64,000 nucleotides of DNA from Marine group II euryarchaeote REDSEA-S11_B3N4 (lineage in GTDB: Archaea > Thermoplasmatota > Poseidoniia > Poseidoniales > Thalassarchaeaceae), in assembly GCA_001628485.1 (NCBI GenBank), contig LURR01000012.1, positions 1 to 64,000 on the forward strand, in the 5' to 3' direction. Below the pieces are notes generated by a model. It saw nothing but the letters and a program-made list of their open reading frames with translations. It was not told the DNA's origin and made no database searches. Both the position numbers and the translations under genes were made by a program. Below, one piece after another: positions 4,946-38,473 of the stretch. Position 1 is the first letter of the stretch. Each line of letters begins with the position of its first letter.

Positions 4946-5704
4946 CTACAGGAGTTCCCTCTCCATCACACCCAGTTCCGAATTCGGATCTGCTCTCACT
5001 ATGGCGCTCGAAGCCCTGCTCAGTGCCCTTTCCACTGCCGGGGCGTTTTTGTCTGCAAGCGCCTCCCTGGCCCTGTCTAGATCATAATCTGCAGAGTCTA
5101 GTATCTCATCTCCTGACTCGTCAATCCCTCTCATTCTATGAATCGAGTCCTGTAGTCTGGAGATATCGTCGCTCATGCTCTCCCTCGCTACGGAGATTAG
5201 ACCCTCCCAGCTTGAGGTGTGCTCCGACATCGTTCCGGATGTCGCTCTCTCGAACGCTCTGACTCGGATTGGTTCCCACGGGTTACGTCCTAGAGATGCA
5301 ACGATGTCCATTGCGCATCTGGCTCTGGTCTGGAGGGGTCCATCTATGACTATCTCATTCATGAAGCATTTGGCAAACAGTCCGAACCCCCAGTAGTGCC
5401 GACTTGAGACAAACATCCTGACCTCTTCAGTCTCGCATTCTAACTCCCACCTCTGCTCATCGACCCTTGGCATCTCTGTGAACTTCGGGGGACCGTGCGT
5501 CCCTAGGGATCTCAGAGCTGCCTTGGCCACATCTCCCAGATACACCTTACCGAATGAGCCCCTGGTTCCGAACTGATGCATCATACCTCCCTCGTCGAAA
5601 GCCATTCTTGGATCGGAGTCACTCACCTGTGCGAATAGTACTGAACGTTGCGGATGGACCCCCACTGGTCCGCTATCACTGGCCGCTACCTCTCCCATAT
5701 CCAT
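4946..5704 (-). CDS. Unrecognised soluble protein
   Basis: About 253 residues from ATG 5704 (or ATG 5698). The open frame runs further to 5836, but that part would overlap the divergent small gene at 5778 and looks non-coding. The protein has no membrane segment and no signal peptide. The N-terminal half is a mixed domain with conserved-looking aromatic stretches (SRHYWGFGLFAKCFMNEIVI). The C-terminal 100 residues are acidic and helical (ADYDLDRAREALADKNAPAVERAL), suggesting a helical bundle. I cannot assign a family or role. It converges on the Sec61-beta gene. Confidence 0.6.
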   Translation of the reverse strand: MDMGEVAASDSGPVGVHPQRSVLFAQVSDSDPRMAFDEGGMMHQFGTRGSFGKVYLGDVAKAALRSLGTHGPPKFTEMPRVDEQRWELECETEEVRMFVSSRHYWGFGLFAKCFMNEIVIDGPLQTRARCAMDIVASLGRNPWEPIRVRAFERATSGTMSEHTSSWEGLISVARESMSDDISRLQDSIHRMRGIDESGDEILDSADYDLDRAREALADKNAPAVERALSRASSAIVRADPNSELGVMERELL

Positions 5705-6003: not shown

Positions 6004-7092
6004 ATGACCAATTCTTCTGTGCCTGACTATTCCGGTCAGAACCTAGGGAGAATAAGATGTGTCGTGGATGTTGGGGAGAACTCAATCGAAATCGACCCCT
6101 ACGTTGCCGACTTCTTCTTCGAACCAATCTTCCTATCTGGTAGGTTTCCAGACTTGACCTGCACTGCCCAGGTATTGGGGCTCGATGGGGGCGAGGAACC
6201 TCTGGTGAATGTGGAGATAGTGTCTAAGAGAAGAGGTCAGAGGTACGATGCTCTGAGGATTACTAGCGAAGAGATTTTCTCGAAACCGAACAAGTTCTCT
6301 ATTATTTTCGGATTTGATAGTGAGAGACTGAAGGCTCCACTACAGTTGGAAGCAGAAGTAGAGGTTAGAAACGCAGGAACTCCAATAATTGCTAGAATCC
6401 ACTCCGGGATGTCGGAGTCGTTCGAGGGAAATGTCAGCTCAAATCTCTCTGACGTAAGCTCTACTGTCCGAAAGGAGAGATCGATGACCTTCTGGGACTG
6501 GCCACTCAGCGACGCTAGGCTCGAGGTCAGGGCAGACCAGAGCTGGATCAGTGAGTTTGGGGAAATAGACGTGCTGTACAGTGGAGGGGATGGAGGGGTC
6601 GGAGGCTCTGTGAAGCTCACAGATGAATTCCAAGAGATTGACTTCAGTGCTGTGAGGCCTCTGATGCTTCCCAAGGACGGCTTCCCAAGAGCCCCATATC
6701 ACACATGTGCATCCATCATCATCAGAATGGGAAGAGATGGGACTGAGATACCAGTCGTTAGCCATCTTGTAGACAGCAGACCGTCTAGAAGGGGCTCTTA
6801 CGGAAAGATATCAGATTTGGATGATCGCGATGGTTGGCCGTATTTCCTCTGGAGGGGAATGCACTTCAAAGAGCAACCAAAGGAAGAGAAATTTCTAATC
6901 AAGAAGGGAAGGCTATGGGAGGGCTTCACGTATCTGGATTCGGAGATCTCTGACACCATAAAGAGGGTCCAGCATGATCGCTACACCAGCGTCGTGCCCA
7001 CCAGGGCCTGGTTCTCGTACAAGGAAGAGGAGTTCATTGTGAACTGGTTCCATTTGGATGAGTATGGTTGGAAGGTTAACTTCTCTGACTAG
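6004..7092 (+). CDS. Unrecognised 362-residue soluble protein
   Basis: The ATG at 6004 opens a frame of 362 residues without signal peptide or membrane helices. The sequence is beta-rich, with alternating hydrophobic strands (IRCVVDVGENSIEIDPYV and similar) in the first two thirds. The C-terminus is richer in aromatic and basic residues (FLIKKGRLWEGFTYL). No catalytic motif is evident. It follows the small Cys/His gene by 31 bases and its stop overlaps the convergent recombinase stop by 4 bases. I cannot name a family. Confidence 0.6.
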   Translation: MTNSSVPDYSGQNLGRIRCVVDVGENSIEIDPYVADFFFEPIFLSGRFPDLTCTAQVLGLDGGEEPLVNVEIVSKRRGQRYDALRITSEEIFSKPNKFSIIFGFDSERLKAPLQLEAEVEVRNAGTPIIARIHSGMSESFEGNVSSNLSDVSSTVRKERSMTFWDWPLSDARLEVRADQSWISEFGEIDVLYSGGDGGVGGSVKLTDEFQEIDFSAVRPLMLPKDGFPRAPYHTCASIIIRMGRDGTEIPVVSHLVDSRPSRRGSYGKISDLDDRDGWPYFLWRGMHFKEQPKEEKFLIKKGRLWEGFTYLDSEISDTIKRVQHDRYTSVVPTRAWFSYKEEEFIVNWFHLDEYGWKVNFSD

Positions 7093-8360
7093 AGCTCGGT
7101 TGGAATTCTTCCCGTCTCCTCAACTTCCTTATTTTGATTCTCTCCCTCTCCATTTGCATCTGACTCTAGTCCAGCTAACGGCGGACTCCTCTGGGCCCTG
7201 TGGTATATCTCTCTCAGTGTCTGATCCCCTATCTCCAGGTAAACCCTGGTTGTTGCAATACTCGAATGCCCGAGAAGCCTCTGGATAGTAACAAGGTCCG
7301 CACCCCTCTCAAGTAGACCGGTAGCGAAAGTATGCCTCAGGGTATGTGGACTAAGTCTGCTCTTCGGGATGTCTGAGGCGTCTGCAAGTCTGTCCATCAT
7401 CTTCTGTATAGACCGGGGGTTGATCCTACGTCCCCTGCTTGACACGAACATTGCCCTTAGCCCCACGTCTTGGCTTTCCCTAATCCTACTCTCCCGTATT
7501 GGCTCCCATGATTCCAGGACATCAACCGAGTTTTTCGTGAATAGGACGGTTCGGTCCTTCTCCCCCTTTCCTCCTATCACCAACGCGGATAGGTCTTCCT
7601 TGTCTATGTCGTCGATATCTAGAGCGCAAAGCTCTGACACTCTTAGTCCGGTATCTAGCATTAGAGTCGATACTGGCATCGCCAAAGGGTCCTCGGACTC
7701 GCTGACCGCAATTCTGAGCCTTTCCAACTCTCTCCTGCCTAGAGTCTTCGGAAGCGATCTACTCCTTGATGGCCTTTGTATCCAGTCCGGAACGATGTGA
7801 CCGAGCCATTTCAGTAGGTGAGTTAGGGCTGCTATCTTGGCATTAATCGTAGTTGGCTTGAGATCCCCGAGTCCATTCATCCAAGCATCCATTCTGCCAT
7901 TGTTAGGGTCAGCAAAGAGGTGGAAATCTCTTACTGACATTCTGGCAGACTCATCCCAAACTAGGGTCCCATCTCCTGGAAGAGATGTGGTTGAAAACGT
8001 CCTAGCAGCTACGTCGTATGCTCTGATGGTGTGCGAGCTCTTCTTCTCCGAGCGTAGCTGCTGTAACCAGCATTCGTGCCACTGCAATTGCGATATCCTG
8101 TGTAATCTAGAAGGTAGCGAGTCGGAAAGCCCGACATCTTCGGAATGGAACCTTTGGCCCAATCTACCTACCGAATCGAATAGCGCCTCTTTGCTTCCCC
8201 CTTCTTTGTTCAACCCTTCTCGCCTCCAGCCGCGAACGGCATGTGCATCCCTGTCCCGTAGGACGTCGGCAAGGAGACGTATTGTGACTTGAATGCTTCT
8301 CTGCGCTATCGCACCTTGGGACGCATTGGGATAGTAGCCAAAAATAGCCGAGTGGATCAC
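7089..8360 (-). CDS. xerA: Tyrosine recombinase, XerA/XerC/XerD type
   Basis: 423 residues. It cuts and rejoins DNA through a phosphotyrosine link; in archaea the XerA type resolves chromosome dimers at a dif site. All catalytic residues are visible: Arg240 (TGLRVSEL), Lys265 (GGKGEKDR), His339 and Arg342 (HTLRHTFA), His365 (LLGHSSI) and nucleophile Tyr374 (TRVYLE). The core-binding domain is at about 92-190. The first 90 residues are an extension not seen in ordinary Xer proteins, and the last 40 are acidic. The GTG start at 8360 overlaps the RimK stop in a GTGA junction, implying coupled translation. No phage or integron genes are nearby, which favours a housekeeping role. Confidence 0.9.
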   Translation of the reverse strand: MIHSAIFGYYPNASQGAIAQRSIQVTIRLLADVLRDRDAHAVRGWRREGLNKEGGSKEALFDSVGRLGQRFHSEDVGLSDSLPSRLHRISQLQWHECWLQQLRSEKKSSHTIRAYDVAARTFSTTSLPGDGTLVWDESARMSVRDFHLFADPNNGRMDAWMNGLGDLKPTTINAKIAALTHLLKWLGHIVPDWIQRPSRSRSLPKTLGRRELERLRIAVSESEDPLAMPVSTLMLDTGLRVSELCALDIDDIDKEDLSALVIGGKGEKDRTVLFTKNSVDVLESWEPIRESRIRESQDVGLRAMFVSSRGRRINPRSIQKMMDRLADASDIPKSRLSPHTLRHTFATGLLERGADLVTIQRLLGHSSIATTRVYLEIGDQTLREIYHRAQRSPPLAGLESDANGEGENQNKEVEETGRIPTEL

Positions 8361-9307
8361 AGAGCGTGCTCAGACTCGTTTTCACTGGAACTGACAGAGA
8401 ACGAACGCTCCTCGGAGATGGTAGAGTTACTGGAATAGAGGTCGTTTAGGTGCTCTGCTACCTTGCCTGCTACATTTACCTTGGTCGCACCCTCTATCCC
8501 CTCTAGTCCCGGGCTGGAGTTAACTTCCAGCACCAATGGGCCTCTGTCGGACTCGAGCATATCGACTCCCGCCACCTCGAGTCCTAGGGTTTCTGCAGAG
8601 AGGATAGCAATCCTCCTCTGCTCTTCCGTCAAATCTACTCCTGTAACAGACCCGCCTAGGTGGAAGTTGGAGCGGAACTCGCTCCCATGTGCTTTGCGCC
8701 GCATCGATGCGACAACCTCCCCGCCAACAACCAGTGCCCGAACATCGCTACCATGGGACTCCTTGACGTATTCTTGCACTAGGGGCCTCATACCTCTCTC
8801 GAGCATCTGGAATACTAGTTGCCTGGCCTGCTGAGAGGAGTTTACCAGAAATACTCCAGAGCCATGAGTCCCCTCTGTCGACTTAACGACGCATGGTGAA
8901 CCCCCCACCCTTCTTACTGCGCGATCTGTGTCCTCCCATGCACCAACATGTGCTGTGATCGGAACTGGGACGCGAGCCTCGGCCATCATCTGGCAAGCAA
9001 CCAGCTTGTCTCTGCTTCTCAGAATGCCCTGACTTGAGTTCAGCACTATCACACCGGTTTGCTCGAACTGCCTGACTATCGCTACTCCTCTCCGAGTGAT
9101 TGAATATCCAATCCTAGGTAGAACGGCCTCGCACTCTACGGGCCATCCCTTGTGGAAGACCCTCCCCCCATCATCATCCACAACGATGGTTAGCGCGAGA
9201 GGATCGATGATGTCTACCATCCATCCTTCCCTCTCGGCCTCAGTTGCCAGCCTTCTGGTGCTGTAAAGCTCGGGGCCCCTGGAGAGTAGTACTAGCCTTG
9301 GCTCCAT
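8357..9307 (-). CDS. rimK: RimK-family ATP-grasp ligase
   Basis: About 316 residues from ATG 9307, chosen because RimK proteins open with a short strand then SRGPELYSTRRL, exactly as in this reading. A GTG at 9391 would add 28 basic residues. RimK-type enzymes join an amino acid, often glutamate, to a protein C-terminus or small acceptor by way of an acyl phosphate. The ATP-grasp landmarks are visible: SRDKLVACQMM, the PCVVKSTEGTHGSGV phosphate loop, the LVQEYVKESHGSDVRALVVG segment, and metal ligands in LVLEVNSSPGLEGIE. Whether the acceptor is a ribosomal protein, a cofactor or LysW cannot be told. Confidence 0.88.
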   Translation of the reverse strand: MEPRLVLLSRGPELYSTRRLATEAEREGWMVDIIDPLALTIVVDDDGGRVFHKGWPVECEAVLPRIGYSITRRGVAIVRQFEQTGVIVLNSSQGILRSRDKLVACQMMAEARVPVPITAHVGAWEDTDRAVRRVGGSPCVVKSTEGTHGSGVFLVNSSQQARQLVFQMLERGMRPLVQEYVKESHGSDVRALVVGGEVVASMRRKAHGSEFRSNFHLGGSVTGVDLTEEQRRIAILSAETLGLEVAGVDMLESDRGPLVLEVNSSPGLEGIEGATKVNVAGKVAEHLNDLYSSNSTISEERSFSVSSSENESEHAL

Positions 9308-9438
9308 GTCCTGCGCCGCCCAAGAGACCGCCTTCAACCCTTTCCTCCGGGAACTCGTGACTCTATTGTGAGTATGCATTGTGAGACTCACGAAGTCGGA
9401 GAGATTGAAAGCCTCAGGGTGGGACTGGCTAACAGAGC

Positions 9439-11532
9439 ATGTCCGAAGACGATTCGATTGACAGAGAGTCCCTTACCTCGAACACGGTTGCGAAGCTTAG
9501 GGAAATCTGCAAGAAGCGGGGACTCCTTGTCTCAGGGAAGAAATCGGAGTTAGTAGATAGAATTCTTGAGGATGCAGGAGTTGTTGAGGAGCCTGTTGAC
9601 ACATCTGAAGAAGATGATTGGGACGAAGGCGATGCTCTCGTCATGGATGACGAACCCGATGTTACAAGAGAAAAGGTAGAAGAGGTCATTTCTAAAATTG
9701 AGAATGTCGTAGAGGCCGAGGTAGTCGAGGCAGAGGTATTGCCAGCAGAATCTAATGAGATCCAAGAGGACGAAGCTCCGTTAGTAGTCGCCGAGGACGA
9801 TCAACCTTCATTGGTCATCTCGATGCCTACAATTTCTTCATTGGGAGACAGATGGAAGGCTCTAGCAGCGGTGATAGTTGTGGTCATACTGGTCGGGGCT
9901 GCAACTACGGTTTTCCTTCAACGCAGCTCTGGTTTCGAAGTAGCTAAGCTGAGGTATGGGGATAGGATGGAGTTTCAGGTAATTGACTCCAGCATAAGCA
10001 TAGATGGAGAGGAGATGCTCTCTGTTGTGAGGGACTCTACTGGCGGTATTCTGGAACCAGCCTGTGGAGAGGTATCGATGGATTTGGATGGAACTGGATC
10101 AGTCTCAGTAACTGAAGGACCCAATTCGGGAGCCGTAGAAACTACTGATAGCCTAGGAAGAACAGGCTTCTTGGCGGCCGAGAAGGGAATAAGCCTCGAC
10201 TTGGACGTTGACTTCGAGGGAAGGACATGGAGGGACGACTCTAACACAGACTGTGGGAACATCCGATGGGTAATGTCTGGAAACGACCTGAGTATGGACT
10301 CAACCAGCTGGGTGGAGTTGGAGAAGACTGAGGTAAAGAGGACTGACACCTCCATCTCGTTCAGTGATGTGGACTCGGTAACAACGAATGCCAGGACCGT
10401 AACTTACGACTCGGAGGGACTAGGTGGATTAGGCGCACTCTTGCCTACCCTTTCTTTCCCACTGACTCCCATCGAGCTACACGACTTTTTTGGAGAAGCT
10501 GTGATCAAGGAGGGAGCTAGATCCTCCGATCCGGATCTAGGTTGGAATTCCGATTGGAAATGGGAGGTGAAGAAGGAGTTCAGAGACGATACCCATGGTC
10601 TGGTATACCCGGTTTATCTCGACCACGAGGAAATAGGGAGGTGTTATGGCCATGCTACAATTCTACTACACTTGCAGGATGGGAGCCCTTGGCCCGTTAG
10701 GCAGGTTGCGGACATAAGACTGGATAAGAACCTCCAGACAAATGACTGTGACTTCCTAGTTAGCACTCTTTCGGATGAACTCCTGCCGGAAGGAACTCTC
10801 AGTATCAGCATGACCTACTCGAGTATTTCTTTCTCCACTGGTAGCAGTGAAGTCGATTGGGAGAGGAACTACCTCGGGAGTCCCAATGATGGAGAGGACA
10901 GGCCTGGTACCTCAACTAAGAGGAACTGGGTAGACTCCATGTGGGACGATACAGAAATCAGACAGTTCGATATGGAAGAGGCAGTATCTTGTCTCAAATC
11001 GAGGTATCCGGACTCGCAGGCGACCCTGGCGCTAGAATCCGGAGGATACATCTGGAGAGCCTCCTGGTCCAGGCCTACTTCAGAACCCCAGTGGAACATG
11101 TCCTGGGTTGACGAGGATGACGACTCCGGTTGGCTGGTACTTCAGAGATCATCTGAAGGCTGCGAGATTCTATCAACGGGATCAAATGATAGGGGTGAAG
11201 TTACTTGGAATAGAGACTCTATACCCAGTACTCAGACCCTCTCTTTGCTGGAATCGAGGATTCTAGACTCTGAGAGATATCCCGACCTGTCTCCATATGT
11301 ACAGTCCGGAGAATCCTGGAATCTTCAAGCACAGGTTGGTTACAGACTATCTGTCACAGAGGATAGTGAGATTCTGAGCCTCCTACCTGGCGACTTGGGA
11401 GATGGAAAGGTAACCATGACCGCAGTTAGGGAATGGGAAGAAGAAGGACGAGAAAAGTCAGTTGATTTGGCCATGGACTCTGAGACCGGAGAGATGGTCA
11501 TATGGTGGCTCATCGACAGTCCTAGCGAGTGA
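9439..11532 (+). CDS. SAP-domain single-pass membrane protein with large external domain
   Basis: 697 residues in three parts. Residues about 12-46 form a SAP motif (NTVAKLREICKKRGLLVSGK), a helix-extended-loop-helix that binds DNA or chromatin in other proteins. Residues 47-135 are a very acidic linker. A single membrane helix (about 141-160) precedes about 535 outer residues that are acidic, Ser/Thr/Trp-rich and beta-structured with several cysteines. There is no signal peptide, so the SAP end should be cytoplasmic. It lies 69 bases upstream of parA on the same strand. A membrane-anchored DNA-binding role is an inference from the domain order. Confidence 0.75.
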   Translation: MSEDDSIDRESLTSNTVAKLREICKKRGLLVSGKKSELVDRILEDAGVVEEPVDTSEEDDWDEGDALVMDDEPDVTREKVEEVISKIENVVEAEVVEAEVLPAESNEIQEDEAPLVVAEDDQPSLVISMPTISSLGDRWKALAAVIVVVILVGAATTVFLQRSSGFEVAKLRYGDRMEFQVIDSSISIDGEEMLSVVRDSTGGILEPACGEVSMDLDGTGSVSVTEGPNSGAVETTDSLGRTGFLAAEKGISLDLDVDFEGRTWRDDSNTDCGNIRWVMSGNDLSMDSTSWVELEKTEVKRTDTSISFSDVDSVTTNARTVTYDSEGLGGLGALLPTLSFPLTPIELHDFFGEAVIKEGARSSDPDLGWNSDWKWEVKKEFRDDTHGLVYPVYLDHEEIGRCYGHATILLHLQDGSPWPVRQVADIRLDKNLQTNDCDFLVSTLSDELLPEGTLSISMTYSSISFSTGSSEVDWERNYLGSPNDGEDRPGTSTKRNWVDSMWDDTEIRQFDMEEAVSCLKSRYPDSQATLALESGGYIWRASWSRPTSEPQWNMSWVDEDDDSGWLVLQRSSEGCEILSTGSNDRGEVTWNRDSIPSTQTLSLLESRILDSERYPDLSPYVQSGESWNLQAQVGYRLSVTEDSEILSLLPGDLGDGKVTMTAVREWEEEGREKSVDLAMDSETGEMVIWWLIDSPSE

Positions 11533-11601
11533 TAAAAAACACCATTACAGGCCTATTGGCAAGCGTCATATTCAACACATCATTGACTACCGTTGCCCTA
11601 G

Positions 11602-12552
11602 ATGGGTTCGAAGGATAGTGACCAAAGTCTTCCTGAAGTCGGGGAGGCTCCCCTGATCATCGATGTCGAATTCTTGGAGGAAGAGGACGAAACGCTCGCC
11701 CAATCCCTTGATTCAATTGAGGAGGTCAGTTTTTCGAGGCCAAGAAGCGCGATGGAACTCCCCCCATCCCTACCTACTCCACAAGGGAGGGCCAGAGTAG
11801 TGACCGTGATCAATCAGAAGGGAGGGGTGGGTAAAACCACCACGGTAATCAATATCGCAGCTCAGATTGCTCTTAGGGGGTTCAGAGTCCTGGTCATTGA
11901 TTCCGACTCACAGGGGAACTGCGCTACAGGTCTTGGTGTGGACAAGAGCAAGGTCAAGAACACCACGAGAGACCTGATCCTCAGTCCCGAGACGGCAGTC
12001 GACTCCAGGCATGCAACTGCAGTTGAGAACCTACACATCATCGTCGGGGACAGGAGTCTTATCGGACTGGAGCAGGAGATGATGAGACAGCTTGGAAGAG
12101 AGAAGAGAATGAAGGAGGCACTTCAACCACTACTGGCTCACTATGATCTAGTGCTAATCGACACGCCCCCTTCACTGGGCCTAGTGACAATCAACGCATT
12201 GGTGGCCTCGGATGGTGTTCTAGTACCCGTACAGACAGAATACTTCGCTCTGGAGGGACTAGCCTTGCTGTCCGGGACCATCAGAGAAGTAAGGAGCCTC
12301 CTCAATGAGAGGTTGGGAGTGGATGGGGTGCTATTGACCATGCACTCCCAGACACTTCTGAACAAGCAGGTTGCAGGAGAGGTCTTGGAAAACTTCCCGG
12401 ACTTAGTCGTCAGACCAGCGATTAGGAGGAACGTCAGGCTTGCCGAGGCACCAAGTCATGGAATCCCTATCCATCTACACGATCCTTCCAGCCCCGGTGG
12501 CAAGGATTACCAGGACATAGCAACCGAACTTCAACACCGATGGAGTCTGTGA
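11602..12552 (+). CDS. parA: ParA/Soj-family partition ATPase
   Basis: 316 residues. ParA ATPases bind DNA non-specifically as ATP dimers and position chromosomes, plasmids or protein clusters. The deviant Walker A motif KGGVGKTTT carries both lysines (signature Lys73 and Lys78). Walker A' (VLVIDSDSQGN) and Walker B (LVLIDTPPSLG) follow, so an active ATPase is expected. A 60-residue acidic N-terminal extension precedes the core and is unusual for Soj-type proteins, which mostly start at the first strand. Only 3 bases separate it from the next gene, whose N-terminus resembles that of ParB. No full parB with a DNA-binding domain is present nearby. Confidence 0.92.
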   Translation: MGSKDSDQSLPEVGEAPLIIDVEFLEEEDETLAQSLDSIEEVSFSRPRSAMELPPSLPTPQGRARVVTVINQKGGVGKTTTVINIAAQIALRGFRVLVIDSDSQGNCATGLGVDKSKVKNTTRDLILSPETAVDSRHATAVENLHIIVGDRSLIGLEQEMMRQLGREKRMKEALQPLLAHYDLVLIDTPPSLGLVTINALVASDGVLVPVQTEYFALEGLALLSGTIREVRSLLNERLGVDGVLLTMHSQTLLNKQVAGEVLENFPDLVVRPAIRRNVRLAEAPSHGIPIHLHDPSSPGGKDYQDIATELQHRWSL

Positions 12553-12555
12553 TTA

Positions 12556-13521
12556 ATGGCAAAAGGTGGTCTGGGCAGAGGACTGGATGAGATATATTCC
12601 AAAACAGAAGGGCCCGATCTATCTTCTTTCGTAACCGAGGAAAAGATGCCAGATTCTCCTAGGGCCGCAGTCATCTGGATGATATTCGGAAGCTTCTGCT
12701 TCGGGACCATGAATGCACTGGTCAAATGGACCAGCGATTACACTGATGTTTGGATGATTATCATGGTCAGGTCAGCAGTTATCGCACTCGCTGTTGCAGC
12801 ATTCGCTGCCTCTAGGGGCATTAGTCTGAAGGTAAACGATCACAGAACCATGTTGCTAAGGTGCATAGTAGGGCTAATTGCCATGATTCTGTACTTCACC
12901 GCACTTGGAAGGATTCCAATTGGTCAAGCCGTGACTCTCCAGTACACTGGTCCCCTATTCGTTACCCTCCTTTCTGGGAGGATACTGGCTGAGAGGGTTT
13001 CCGCATCGGTGGCGAGTCTGGTATTGACTGCATTCGCTGGAATCGTTCTAATTGTCTCTCCAGAGGTAGGCACTGTAGACCCAAACGCACTGCTTGCTCT
13101 CGGCTCTGGATTCTTCGCAGCATTGGCGTACATGTACGTCAGGGAACTAAGAAAGACAGACTCTCCGGCTACCGTCATATTCTGGTTTGCAGCCTTCTCA
13201 GTCGTTGGAAGCATCGTCCAGTCTGTACCACATATTTCCGAGCTTGATTCAAACACGATTGCAGCCCTGATCGGCATCGGCATCGGTGCTGGAGGGGGGC
13301 AGGTAGGTATCACAATGGCCTACCACAAGGCAAATGCTGCCTGGGTTAGTGCTTTTTCCTACCTCACAGTACTGGTTGCAACTTTCTACGGCTTCTCTCT
13401 ATTCGGCGAAACTCTCTCTCTTGCGGATTGGCTGGGAGGAGCATTGGTCGTAGGATCTGGAATCGCACTTGTTTTCGTTTTCCCTCCGCGTGAGAATAGT
13501 GAGTTGAGTAAAACTTCCTAA
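12556..13521 (+). CDS. EamA/DMT-family transporter with ParB-like N-terminal peptide
   Basis: 321 residues. From about residue 34 onward it is a ten-helix drug/metabolite transporter with two EamA repeats, of the type that moves amino acids, nucleotides or other small metabolites. The first 30 residues do not belong to that fold: MAKGGLGRGLDEI matches the conserved beginning of ParB proteins, which stimulates ParA ATPase. This peptide sits 3 bases after the parA stop. A second in-frame ATG at 12646 has a GAGG ribosome site 5 bases upstream, so a transporter without the peptide may also be made. The transporter call is firm; the ParB resemblance is by eye and short. Confidence 0.85.
   Translation: MAKGGLGRGLDEIYSKTEGPDLSSFVTEEKMPDSPRAAVIWMIFGSFCFGTMNALVKWTSDYTDVWMIIMVRSAVIALAVAAFAASRGISLKVNDHRTMLLRCIVGLIAMILYFTALGRIPIGQAVTLQYTGPLFVTLLSGRILAERVSASVASLVLTAFAGIVLIVSPEVGTVDPNALLALGSGFFAALAYMYVRELRKTDSPATVIFWFAAFSVVGSIVQSVPHISELDSNTIAALIGIGIGAGGGQVGITMAYHKANAAWVSAFSYLTVLVATFYGFSLFGETLSLADWLGGALVVGSGIALVFVFPPRENSELSKTS
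12637..12648 (+). promoter_or_regulatory. Internal Shine-Dalgarno and ATG within the ParB-like/DMT gene
   Basis: GAGG at 12637-12640 is spaced 5 bases from an in-frame ATG at 12646 (MPDSPRAAV). Initiation here would give a DMT transporter of normal length lacking the 30-residue ParB-like peptide. Both starts share one frame with no stop between them. Confidence 0.5.
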
Positions 13522-36372: not shown

Positions 36373-36443
36373 ATATCGTGAAGTAATTAGGATAGAGAAA
36401 CCAGCATTTGCCACTGTTTTCCACCCTCTTGTCTCAAATACCC

Positions 36444-37568
36444 ATGAAAGGGCGTCGGATTGGGGATGGGGGCGTGAGTGAGAGCAAGCCGGATGAATCT
36501 GTTGAGCAAGATAGTCTTGACGAGCTCGATGCCTTGAGGGCGGAACACGCACTTTCCTCCTCTGCCATGGGGGCAGCTGCAAGAGCCCGTGAGAGACTCG
36601 ACGAGGAATCGACTCTTCGCTCAGCAATCAGAAGAGAGAGAAGAATGAGAATTTCTGAAATGACAGATCGGGTCTCCGGAATGCGGGGTGCAATGAGAAA
36701 GGCAAATGAGATACTTTTCGAAGAGCAACTACAGCAGATAGAGGCAGATCTTAGAGACGAATTGGAAGATGAACTAGAGAGGCTGGAAAAGGAGTCTTTG
36801 GAGAGGGAGGAAAGACTACTTCGCGAGGAGATGCTTCACAGGCTCAGAAGGGAGGAGAACAGACTCAGAGACCAGTTGGATCTGGAGAGGGACCGAAGGA
36901 TAGAGGCTCATACATCGAGATTAAGGGACCGTTTGAGGGAAGAGATGGAGGTCGAGTTCTCCCGTAGGAAGGCTTTCCTTGCCGAGAGACTCGAGCTTGA
37001 GGCTAACCAGGGAATCGAGAGGATGGAGAGAAGGGTCGAGATGGACCTCAGAGAAGCAATGGAGTCAGAGGTCCACAGGAAGGCTGAGGCATTCCGTCTA
37101 GAGCAGGAAATCAAGATGAGAGATAACATCGCCAAGAAGAGACGCAAACACGAGTCGAAGTTGGAGAAGCAACTTGAGAACGAGCGCGAGTCTCTCGAGA
37201 AGGAAATGAAGTCCGACATAGAAGTGAGGACTAAATCACTCAGGGAAGAGGCGGAGAGGGCCTCTCTTTCGGATCTCGAACGGAGATTCAGAGCAGAGAG
37301 AGACAGCATGGAGGCTGCACTAGCCCTCAGGAGACAAGAACTGGCGCTTGAGAGCGAGGTTGAGATGGAGCAGAGAGTAGCCGACTTCGTTAATGAGCGG
37401 GAGTCAGAGATGCTTTCGAACCTTGAGAAGCAGTTAGCGAAGAGAGGGGAACTTTCGAAGAAGGAAGTTTCTGAGATAATCAAGACTCTGGAGTCTGAGA
37501 TTCGTGTGAAGATGGAAGCAGCCCTTCTGGATGCAAGGCATAGTGCGATGGAGCACTATGAGTCCTAG
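36444..37568 (+). CDS. Long coiled-coil protein
   Basis: About 374 residues from ATG 36444; a GTG at 36474 with GGGG upstream is an equally good start. Almost the whole length past residue 45 is a charged alpha helix rich in Glu, Arg and Leu (for example LRDELEDELERLEKESLERE), continuous enough for a coiled coil of roughly 45 nm. There are no membrane or globular domains. Such proteins often have structural or scaffolding roles. It lies tail-to-tail, 2 bases apart, with the atypical ParA at 37571, which may be chance or a functional link. Confidence 0.75.
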   Translation: MKGRRIGDGGVSESKPDESVEQDSLDELDALRAEHALSSSAMGAAARARERLDEESTLRSAIRRERRMRISEMTDRVSGMRGAMRKANEILFEEQLQQIEADLRDELEDELERLEKESLEREERLLREEMLHRLRREENRLRDQLDLERDRRIEAHTSRLRDRLREEMEVEFSRRKAFLAERLELEANQGIERMERRVEMDLREAMESEVHRKAEAFRLEQEIKMRDNIAKKRRKHESKLEKQLENERESLEKEMKSDIEVRTKSLREEAERASLSDLERRFRAERDSMEAALALRRQELALESEVEMEQRVADFVNERESEMLSNLEKQLAKRGELSKKEVSEIIKTLESEIRVKMEAALLDARHSAMEHYES

Positions 37569-37570
37569 TC

Positions 37571-38473
37571 TCAATCCTCAGAAATAGTGCTGATTCTCCT
37601 GTCCGCCTCCTTTGCGAACTCCCAGTATGATCTGCTTGCAGAGTTTGTCTTGTTGGGTTTCTGTGCTATTACAATGGGTGCACCTTCAAGGGGGGACTCC
37701 GCGATAGATACAGACCTTGGAATATGAGAATCGAATACCCTGTCTCCGAAGTGTCTCCTAGCTTGCTCAGTGACCGTTTCGCACAGTTTGCTCCTTGTCT
37801 GTACCATCGTCATCAGAATGCCTAGCAATCCGAGATTTGGGTTTACTGACTTCTGCACATCTCTGATTGCAGATATCAACTGTCCCATTCCTTCTAGAGC
37901 ATAGAACTCTGCTTGGATTGGGATTAGGACCCACTCTGCAGCGCACAGCGCATTTACTGTCAGTAGACCAAGTGATGCTGGCGTATCGATAATGATAACA
38001 TCGAAACTGTCCATAGCTTCACTCAGAGCCAGCTTGAGCCTGTTCTCCCTACCAACCCTTGTCGCAAGATCCACTTCTATTCCAGATAGGTCCATGTCGG
38101 CAGGAAGAATCCATAGGTTTCGGACTGCTATGTGATTAGGCGGACCCCTTGATTTTCCTGGATTACTCTTCCTCCATGATGCCTTCATCGATCTAGTCAG
38201 AAAGTCAGGTCCAAGAGTGCAGTCCTCCAGTTTAAGTGAGGAGCTATCCACACCCCTCGAGAATAACTCGTTCATAGTCGGTCCGACTGTCCTTTTGTCA
38301 ACTCCGAATGTCGTTGCCACGTTCCCTTTCGGGTCCATGTCCACTAGCAGAACCCTCCTGCTACTAATCCCGTACTTCTCGCTACCCAGGGAAAGGGCAG
38401 ATGCCAGATTCACAGAAGTAGTCGTCCTAGCGCATCCTCCCTTGTGATTGACACAAGCGATTACAATGGCCAC
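37571..38473 (-). CDS. ParA-family ATPase with altered Walker A motif
   Basis: 300 residues from GTG 38473. It aligns along the full ParA/Soj fold: signature Lys11 in the KGG start, Walker A' VLLVDMDPKGN, Walker B VIIIDTPASLG and the PIQAEFYALEG segment. The phosphate-binding loop reads KGGCARTTT where the family has KGGxGKTTT, so the invariant glycine is Ala15 and the ATP-binding lysine is Arg16. Hydrolysis is probably weak or absent, while dimer or DNA binding may remain. It differs from the intact ParA at 11602 and lacks an adjacent ParB. It follows the MoxR gene by 39 bases on the same strand. Confidence 0.87.
   Translation of the reverse strand: MAIVIACVNHKGGCARTTTSVNLASALSLGSEKYGISSRRVLLVDMDPKGNVATTFGVDKRTVGPTMNELFSRGVDSSSLKLEDCTLGPDFLTRSMKASWRKSNPGKSRGPPNHIAVRNLWILPADMDLSGIEVDLATRVGRENRLKLALSEAMDSFDVIIIDTPASLGLLTVNALCAAEWVLIPIQAEFYALEGMGQLISAIRDVQKSVNPNLGLLGILMTMVQTRSKLCETVTEQARRHFGDRVFDSHIPRSVSIAESPLEGAPIVIAQKPNKTNSASRSYWEFAKEADRRISTISED

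Follow-up and report, generated by a model that had tools for sequence, protein, structure and literature searches.

A ParB-type peptide heads a transporter encoded next to ParA in Poseidoniales archaea and may couple the two proteins

The DNA analysed here, referred to as the window, is a stretch of 64,000 nucleotides from the genome of a Poseidoniales archaeon (1.3 Mb, 92% complete). On the plus strand it encodes, in this order, a SAP-membrane protein (SAPm), a ParA ATPase and an EamA/DMT transporter (Table 1). The initial annotation had singled out these genes as a co-directional trio with 69-base and 3-base spacing, and the coordinates and both gaps were confirmed. It had also described a SAP motif on a membrane protein followed by an intact ParA with an acidic leader. 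SAPm scores 41.5 bits against Pfam SAP (curated cut-off 23.9) and has one TM helix, and ParA has its Walker motifs and a strong AAA_31 match, so both descriptions hold. The loci that were fetched with enough flank share the gene order XerA(-), RimK(-), SAPm(+), ParA(+); in the two Poseidoniales families searched, it is conserved throughout Thalassarchaeaceae and in part of Poseidoniaceae. In every EamA-bearing locus fetched, EamA directly follows ParA, which supports the initial annotation on the gene neighbourhood.

Table 1. Features of the ParA locus and of the second ParA-like gene, in positions of the window
Feature	Positions	Strand	Remarks
XerC/XerA-type tyrosine recombinase	7089..8360	-	conserved neighbour
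RimK-type ATP-grasp ligase	8357..9391	-	divergent neighbour; conserved across the order
SAPm (SAP-membrane protein)	9439..11532	+	697 aa; SAP domain at the N-terminus, then acidic linker, single TM helix, ectodomain
SAP domain, putative DNA binding	9472..9570	+	SAPm residues 12-44; Pfam E 9.5e-11
SAPm single TM helix	9853..9921	+	residues 139-161 by AF2 helix; hydropathy peak 142-160
SAPm ectodomain, presumed extracellular	9919-11529	+	~530 aa; predicted beta-rich; six invariant cysteines; alignment and AF2 model
ParA ATPase with ~60-residue acidic leader	11602..12552	+	316 aa; Pfam AAA_31 E 2.2e-54
ParA deviant Walker A KGGVGKTT	11818..11841	+	residues 73-80
EamA/DMT transporter, entire ORF	12556..13521	+	321 aa
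ParB-type leader of transporter	12556..12645	+	30 aa, MAKGGLGRGLDEIYSKTEGPDLSSFVTEEK; kept in window's genus, g6, g7, parts of g5 and g11
GLGRGL, putative ParA-binding motif	12568..12585	+	EamA residues 5-10
EamA/DMT body, two EamA repeats	12646..13521	+	Pfam EamA PF00892 E 1.9e-24; orthologue only in seven non-adaptor genera
Highly charged coiled-coil protein	36408-37568	+	convergent with second ParA-like gene
Second ParA-like gene	37571-38473	-	found in 56/60 relatives

ParA contains the P-loop QKGGVGKTTT, the stretch VIDSDSQGN and the Walker B motif LVLIDTPPSLG, as does a Walker-type partition ATPase, and residues D100, D102, Q104 and N106 are invariant across the family. The C-terminal RRNVRLAEAPSHG block is also present by sequence, and non-specific DNA binding and ATP-dependent dimerisation are predicted. 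The gene turned up in 124 of the 148 genomes of the window's family, Thalassarchaeaceae, including all 14 with a completeness of 90% or more, and its pN/pS is 0.062 in the window's genus (g1). The protein is of the chromosomal type: its closest solved structure is 8ray_B (ParA family protein, E 4e-58), which from its length and D60A appears to be the M. xanthus ParA21-274-D60A of PMC12462528. In M. xanthus ParB, residues L11, L15, L18 and I19 are needed for binding and R13 for activation, and the ParA pocket at the dimer interface is formed by V116, L150, L152, L155, L187 and L192 (PMC12462528). At these six mapped positions the window ParA has four hydrophobic residues (L192, L194, I197 and L234), which are invariant in 38/38 leader-bearing ParA rows, and two polar ones, Q158 and E229, in place of M. 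xanthus V116 and L187. A contig of genome G135 (L075, C42:71200-82000) encodes a ParA with 44% identity, and the product of the next gene has the N-terminus typical of ParB; the contig looks like a bacterial contaminant in this MAG.

The window encodes a second ParA-like protein, in which the P-loop lysine is replaced by arginine (KGGC[A/S]RTT) in 20/20 species examined of the window's genus, and 13 loci from other genera read KGGC[A/G]KTT. This genus-wide change may alter or abolish its ATPase activity. The charged coiled-coil protein encoded convergently with it is a possible partner, and similar charged ORFs lie beside the second ParA in loci of g11, g7 and g3 (L234, L235, L237).

SAPm is present in all ParA loci. 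Its SAP domain could touch the DNA to which ParA would bind, and a contact between SAPm and ParA is conceivable. With E values of 2.5e-4 to 0.04 and low TM-scores, the predicted fold of its ectodomain weakly matches an ApoB barrel, DUF1849, LmcA and RseB/MucB, which we treat as a lead only.

The N-terminus of the transporter, MAKGGLGRGLDEI, resembles a ParB-type ParA-binding peptide. Residues L11, R13, L15 and L18 of M. xanthus ParB correspond to L6, R8, L10 and I13 (and Y14) of the leader, in which GLGRGLDEI fits the pattern L-x-R/K-x-L-x-x-hydrophobic. The exact GLGRGL occurs in 32 of the 39 leader-bearing relatives, with one or two changes in the remaining 7, and across 35 leaders the column entropy is 0-0.73 bits within GLGRGL and mostly 1.2-2.8 elsewhere. 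A rough composition estimate puts the probability of LG[RK]GL among the opening 12 residues of any one gene below 1e-4, and a chance origin of the motif is unlikely. The leader has a second conserved patch, PDLSSF, outside the ParB motif. Since the N-termini of 10-TM DMT transporters are cytoplasmic, the leader peptide would face ParA.

The leader begins -4 to +3 bases from the ParA stop, and its frame is open in all leaders. Genera g5-g7 lack a Met at the start of the transporter body, which makes the leader start plausible, and in g1 pN/pS is 0.115 for the leader and 0.116 for the EamA body. These three lines of evidence exclude an untranslated leader or a mis-called start and argue that the leader is translated. 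In the same genus, pN is 0.053 for the motif codons, 0.035 for the PDLSSF codons and 0.280 for the rest of the leader, with pS alike at ~0.67; the same comparison in eight separate pairs gave 0.018, 0.009 and 0.110, respectively. This pattern points to strong purifying selection on the motif in the window's genus. The ParB-type peptide that the initial annotation placed at the head of a ten-helix transporter is accordingly a genuine conserved motif under selection, and the transporter has two EamA repeats. The annotation also staked its proposal on conservation of the ParB-like residues across orthologues, which failed in that they are absent in g3, g8 and parts of g5 and g11.

The slot after ParA is filled by one of two unrelated genes. 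It holds EamA in g1, g3, g5, g6, g7, g8 and g11, and in g2, g4, g9, g10 and ParA-bearing Poseidoniaceae it holds a soluble protein of ~140 aa (131-165) with the N-terminus [..]K/R-GLGRGL-D/G-D/H-L, which we call the adaptor. Profile searches of Thalassarchaeaceae found the adaptor in 38 genomes, from just g2, g4, g9 and g10, and an EamA orthologue in 86 genomes, from just the other seven genera; the two are therefore mutually exclusive within this family. The idea that the adaptor survives elsewhere in EamA genomes was rejected, as the profile search returned no match there. Matches to the adaptor family came from Poseidoniales only, no Pfam family was matched by more than one of its members, and its C-domain showed no sequence-level homology in Pfam or PDB. 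Its AF2 fold is alpha-beta-rich (pLDDT above 90); the Foldseek matches of this fold are weak (E 0.008 for the C-terminal domain of MotA, E 0.03 for chaperones of type III secretion) and were not taken as functional evidence.

The adaptor is accompanied by MemX, a two-TM protein with a conserved cytoplasmic tail encoded between RimK and SAPm, and full-length MemX is missing from the EamA genera. MemX was noted in the RimK-SAPm interval of seven loci, and in Thalassarchaeaceae members its C-terminal tail reads YTDEQL-A-GW-xEQI. The tail region also has weak matches, with E about 1e-4 to 1e-6, in other proteins that are often very large, which suggests a shared short module.

In a ParA tree rooted with Poseidoniaceae, all EamA rows group together in a single clade (SH-aLRT 96) that lies within the adaptor genera and has g4 as its sister (93). 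We reconstruct the ancestral slot after ParA as that of a soluble adaptor, with MemX before SAPm. The view of the trio as a system thus stands only in part: the three genes are neighbours in relatives, but the arrangement is not an ancestral module, a possibility ruled out by the soluble adaptor in the slot in four Thalassarchaeaceae genera and Poseidoniaceae. In the simplest history, one event or a short series of events would have removed MemX and the adaptor from the locus and brought EamA into the slot, with the partner peptide of ParA kept at the head of EamA. Individual leaders match the profile of the adaptor N-terminus weakly (E 0.005 to above 1), yet the leaders are set apart from the ORFs of the window; descent of the leader peptide from the adaptor is therefore likely rather than proven. 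PDLSSF of the leader may correspond to DLPFL of the adaptor.

Natural losses bear on the link between motif and ParA. Most Poseidoniaceae lack ParA, and their SAPm gene abuts that of the adaptor (-36 to +32 bases). These adaptors keep RGLDHL-EQN, and their 'LG' has become DG, DE, IP, MA, IG and others, a site diversified throughout the ParA-less clade. Adaptor 'LG' is kept in 65/70 loci with ParA and in 1/42 loci without it (lost in 41/42); the Fisher p of 8e-24 for this association is overstated, because ParA was lost only once on the Poseidoniaceae tree and the coupling represents one event in a large clade. The decay of 'LG' after ParA loss indicates that the motif is tied to ParA. SAPm persists in these ParA-less Poseidoniaceae together with the adaptor, which may therefore be its closer partner. 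Some Poseidoniaceae have ParA and an adaptor with STGRGL or GGRGL, not GLGRGL (L100/L212, L101, L102); these adaptors may represent intermediate states on the way to the loss of ParA.

Within the EamA clade, the ParA tree places about five losses of the leader, and the leaderless orthologues (g3, g8) begin at TM1 in the same slot. ParA is under equal constraint in leaderless pairs (pN/pS 0.053), so the peptide is not indispensable to ParA in those species. Comparison of ParA in leaderless lineages gave no clear signal of convergent changes, with conservative differences only. The possibility that the peptide had moved elsewhere in leaderless genomes was rejected, as no long ORF with an N-terminal GLGRGL (exact motif, ATG start) was present in 16 genomes. 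Two g1 species (loci L008/L073 and L022/L074) have lost the central Arg, reading GLGISL in G144 and GLGMGL in G135, and conserve the rest of the leader; by their sequences, they are natural point mutants.

We consider it probable that EamA is, or recently was, a partner of ParA, most plausibly its cargo, and that it obtained its leader on replacing the adaptor of an older SAPm-MemX-adaptor-ParA system. In such a mechanism, ParA-ATP dimers would bind the nucleoid, and EamA proteins lying in the membrane as pairs or clusters would insert the L-x-R-x-L-x-x-I/L helix of their cytoplasmic N-termini into the ParA dimer interface. The insertion would tether a patch of transporter, and perhaps DNA-contacting SAPm too, to the nucleoid; the leader peptide would stimulate ATP hydrolysis by ParA, and the ParA cycle would spread or position the membrane complex. 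The more specific proposal, that ParA naturally changed its cargo when a metabolite transporter took over the partner peptide of a soluble adaptor and so became a ParA-positioned or ParA-coupled membrane transporter, is put forward tentatively, its chances being a little short of even.

The leader could instead be a relict of start-site capture, in which EamA inserted into the adaptor gene and uses its start and first codons. The peptide would then be a leftover heading to loss, with the operon as the only link between transporter and ParA. Such a history fits the repeated leader losses in the EamA clade, the absence of the central Arg from two g1 species and the short EamA orthologues in this slot that have no leader and begin immediately ahead of TM1. 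However, a passive leftover would not keep just these residues: across the whole of g1, constraint on the motif codons is about fivefold that on the adjoining codons of the leader, with synonymous divergence equal, and the motif persists in five genera. We regard this history as unlikely. The relationship might also run in the opposite sense, with EamA acting as an anchor or brake that draws ParA to the membrane or tunes its activity to the transport state, and with ParA and SAPm serving DNA-envelope attachment or chromosome segregation, not transporter positioning. SAPm, with its SAP domain and TM helix, is an invariant part of the locus and in Poseidoniaceae has survived the loss of ParA, the conserved XerA neighbour suggests a chromosome-maintenance setting, and the window's genome has no ParB_N match above cut-off, all in keeping with this arrangement. 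Set against these points, ParA is dispensable in most Poseidoniaceae and the data hold no sign of DNA segregation, which leaves a reversed relationship with a poor chance of being correct.

The leader might have some other function, such as helping the transporter to insert into the membrane or regulating it from the N-terminus, and resemble the ParB motif by convergence. The weakness of the single-sequence matches to the adaptor N-terminus and the conservation of PDLSSF, which is not part of the ParB motif, would be compatible with this, but the motif stands directly after ParA, in the slot of a GLGRGL adaptor elsewhere, and the adaptor motif tracks the presence of ParA; convergence is accordingly very improbable. 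Our preferred reading therefore remains that EamA is a present or recent partner of ParA.

If this is true, ParA systems gain new cargos through a peptide of ~30 residues that is moved between unrelated proteins in one operon slot, and integral transporters join the list of ParA cargos. A search of open-access papers found no precedent for a ParA cargo of the transporter kind, and the statement of the initial annotation that no system of this make-up had been described agrees with that literature. The locus would also make the spatial organisation of Poseidoniales accessible to tests; these are abundant marine archaea for which no cell-biological study was found in the open-access literature, and lineages that have lost the peptide, the Arg or ParA are ready-made natural controls.

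The closest parallel is ParABS, in which the M. xanthus ParB1-20 peptide (PMC12462528) likewise has L-x-R-x-L-x-x-I/L in an unstructured N-terminus. The partner gene also adjoins a canonical ParA here, and four of the six mapped ParA pocket positions are hydrophobic. The rest of the partner differs, being a membrane transporter here and a parS-binding CTPase in ParB. Pfam found EamA domains only, and no ParB_N, in the transporter, and in the whole genome the one ParB_N match is sub-threshold, a 142-aa protein with a ParB_N/Srx-like match (E 2.5e-5; L113, G000:C28, near 5097-5282) that lies far from ParA and is without the N-terminal motif. SegAB/SegC of Sulfolobales (PMC12284271, PMC11381335) similarly combine an archaeal ParA-type ATPase with a neighbouring partner; they are set apart in that SegB is a DNA-binding partner, and no gene resembling SegB appeared in the slot. 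Two EamA repeats and about ten TM helices are shared with EamA/DMT transporters (TIGR00950 2A78, YddG, RhtA), from which the window transporter differs by its ParB-type leader; plasmid-borne bacterial relatives are ~30% identical to it. The action of a partner through a peptide is established in other systems (PMC12462528, PMC10241942). Partners of ParA/MinD ATPases commonly use short N-terminal peptides (PMC10241942), and in McdAB, ParC, FlhG and PomXYZ, as proposed here, the dedicated protein that connects a ParA ATPase with non-DNA cargo via such a peptide is the product of a nearby gene (PMC10241942). Those partners are soluble or in large assemblies, whereas the candidate in Poseidoniales is an integral 10-TM transporter that replaces a soluble partner.
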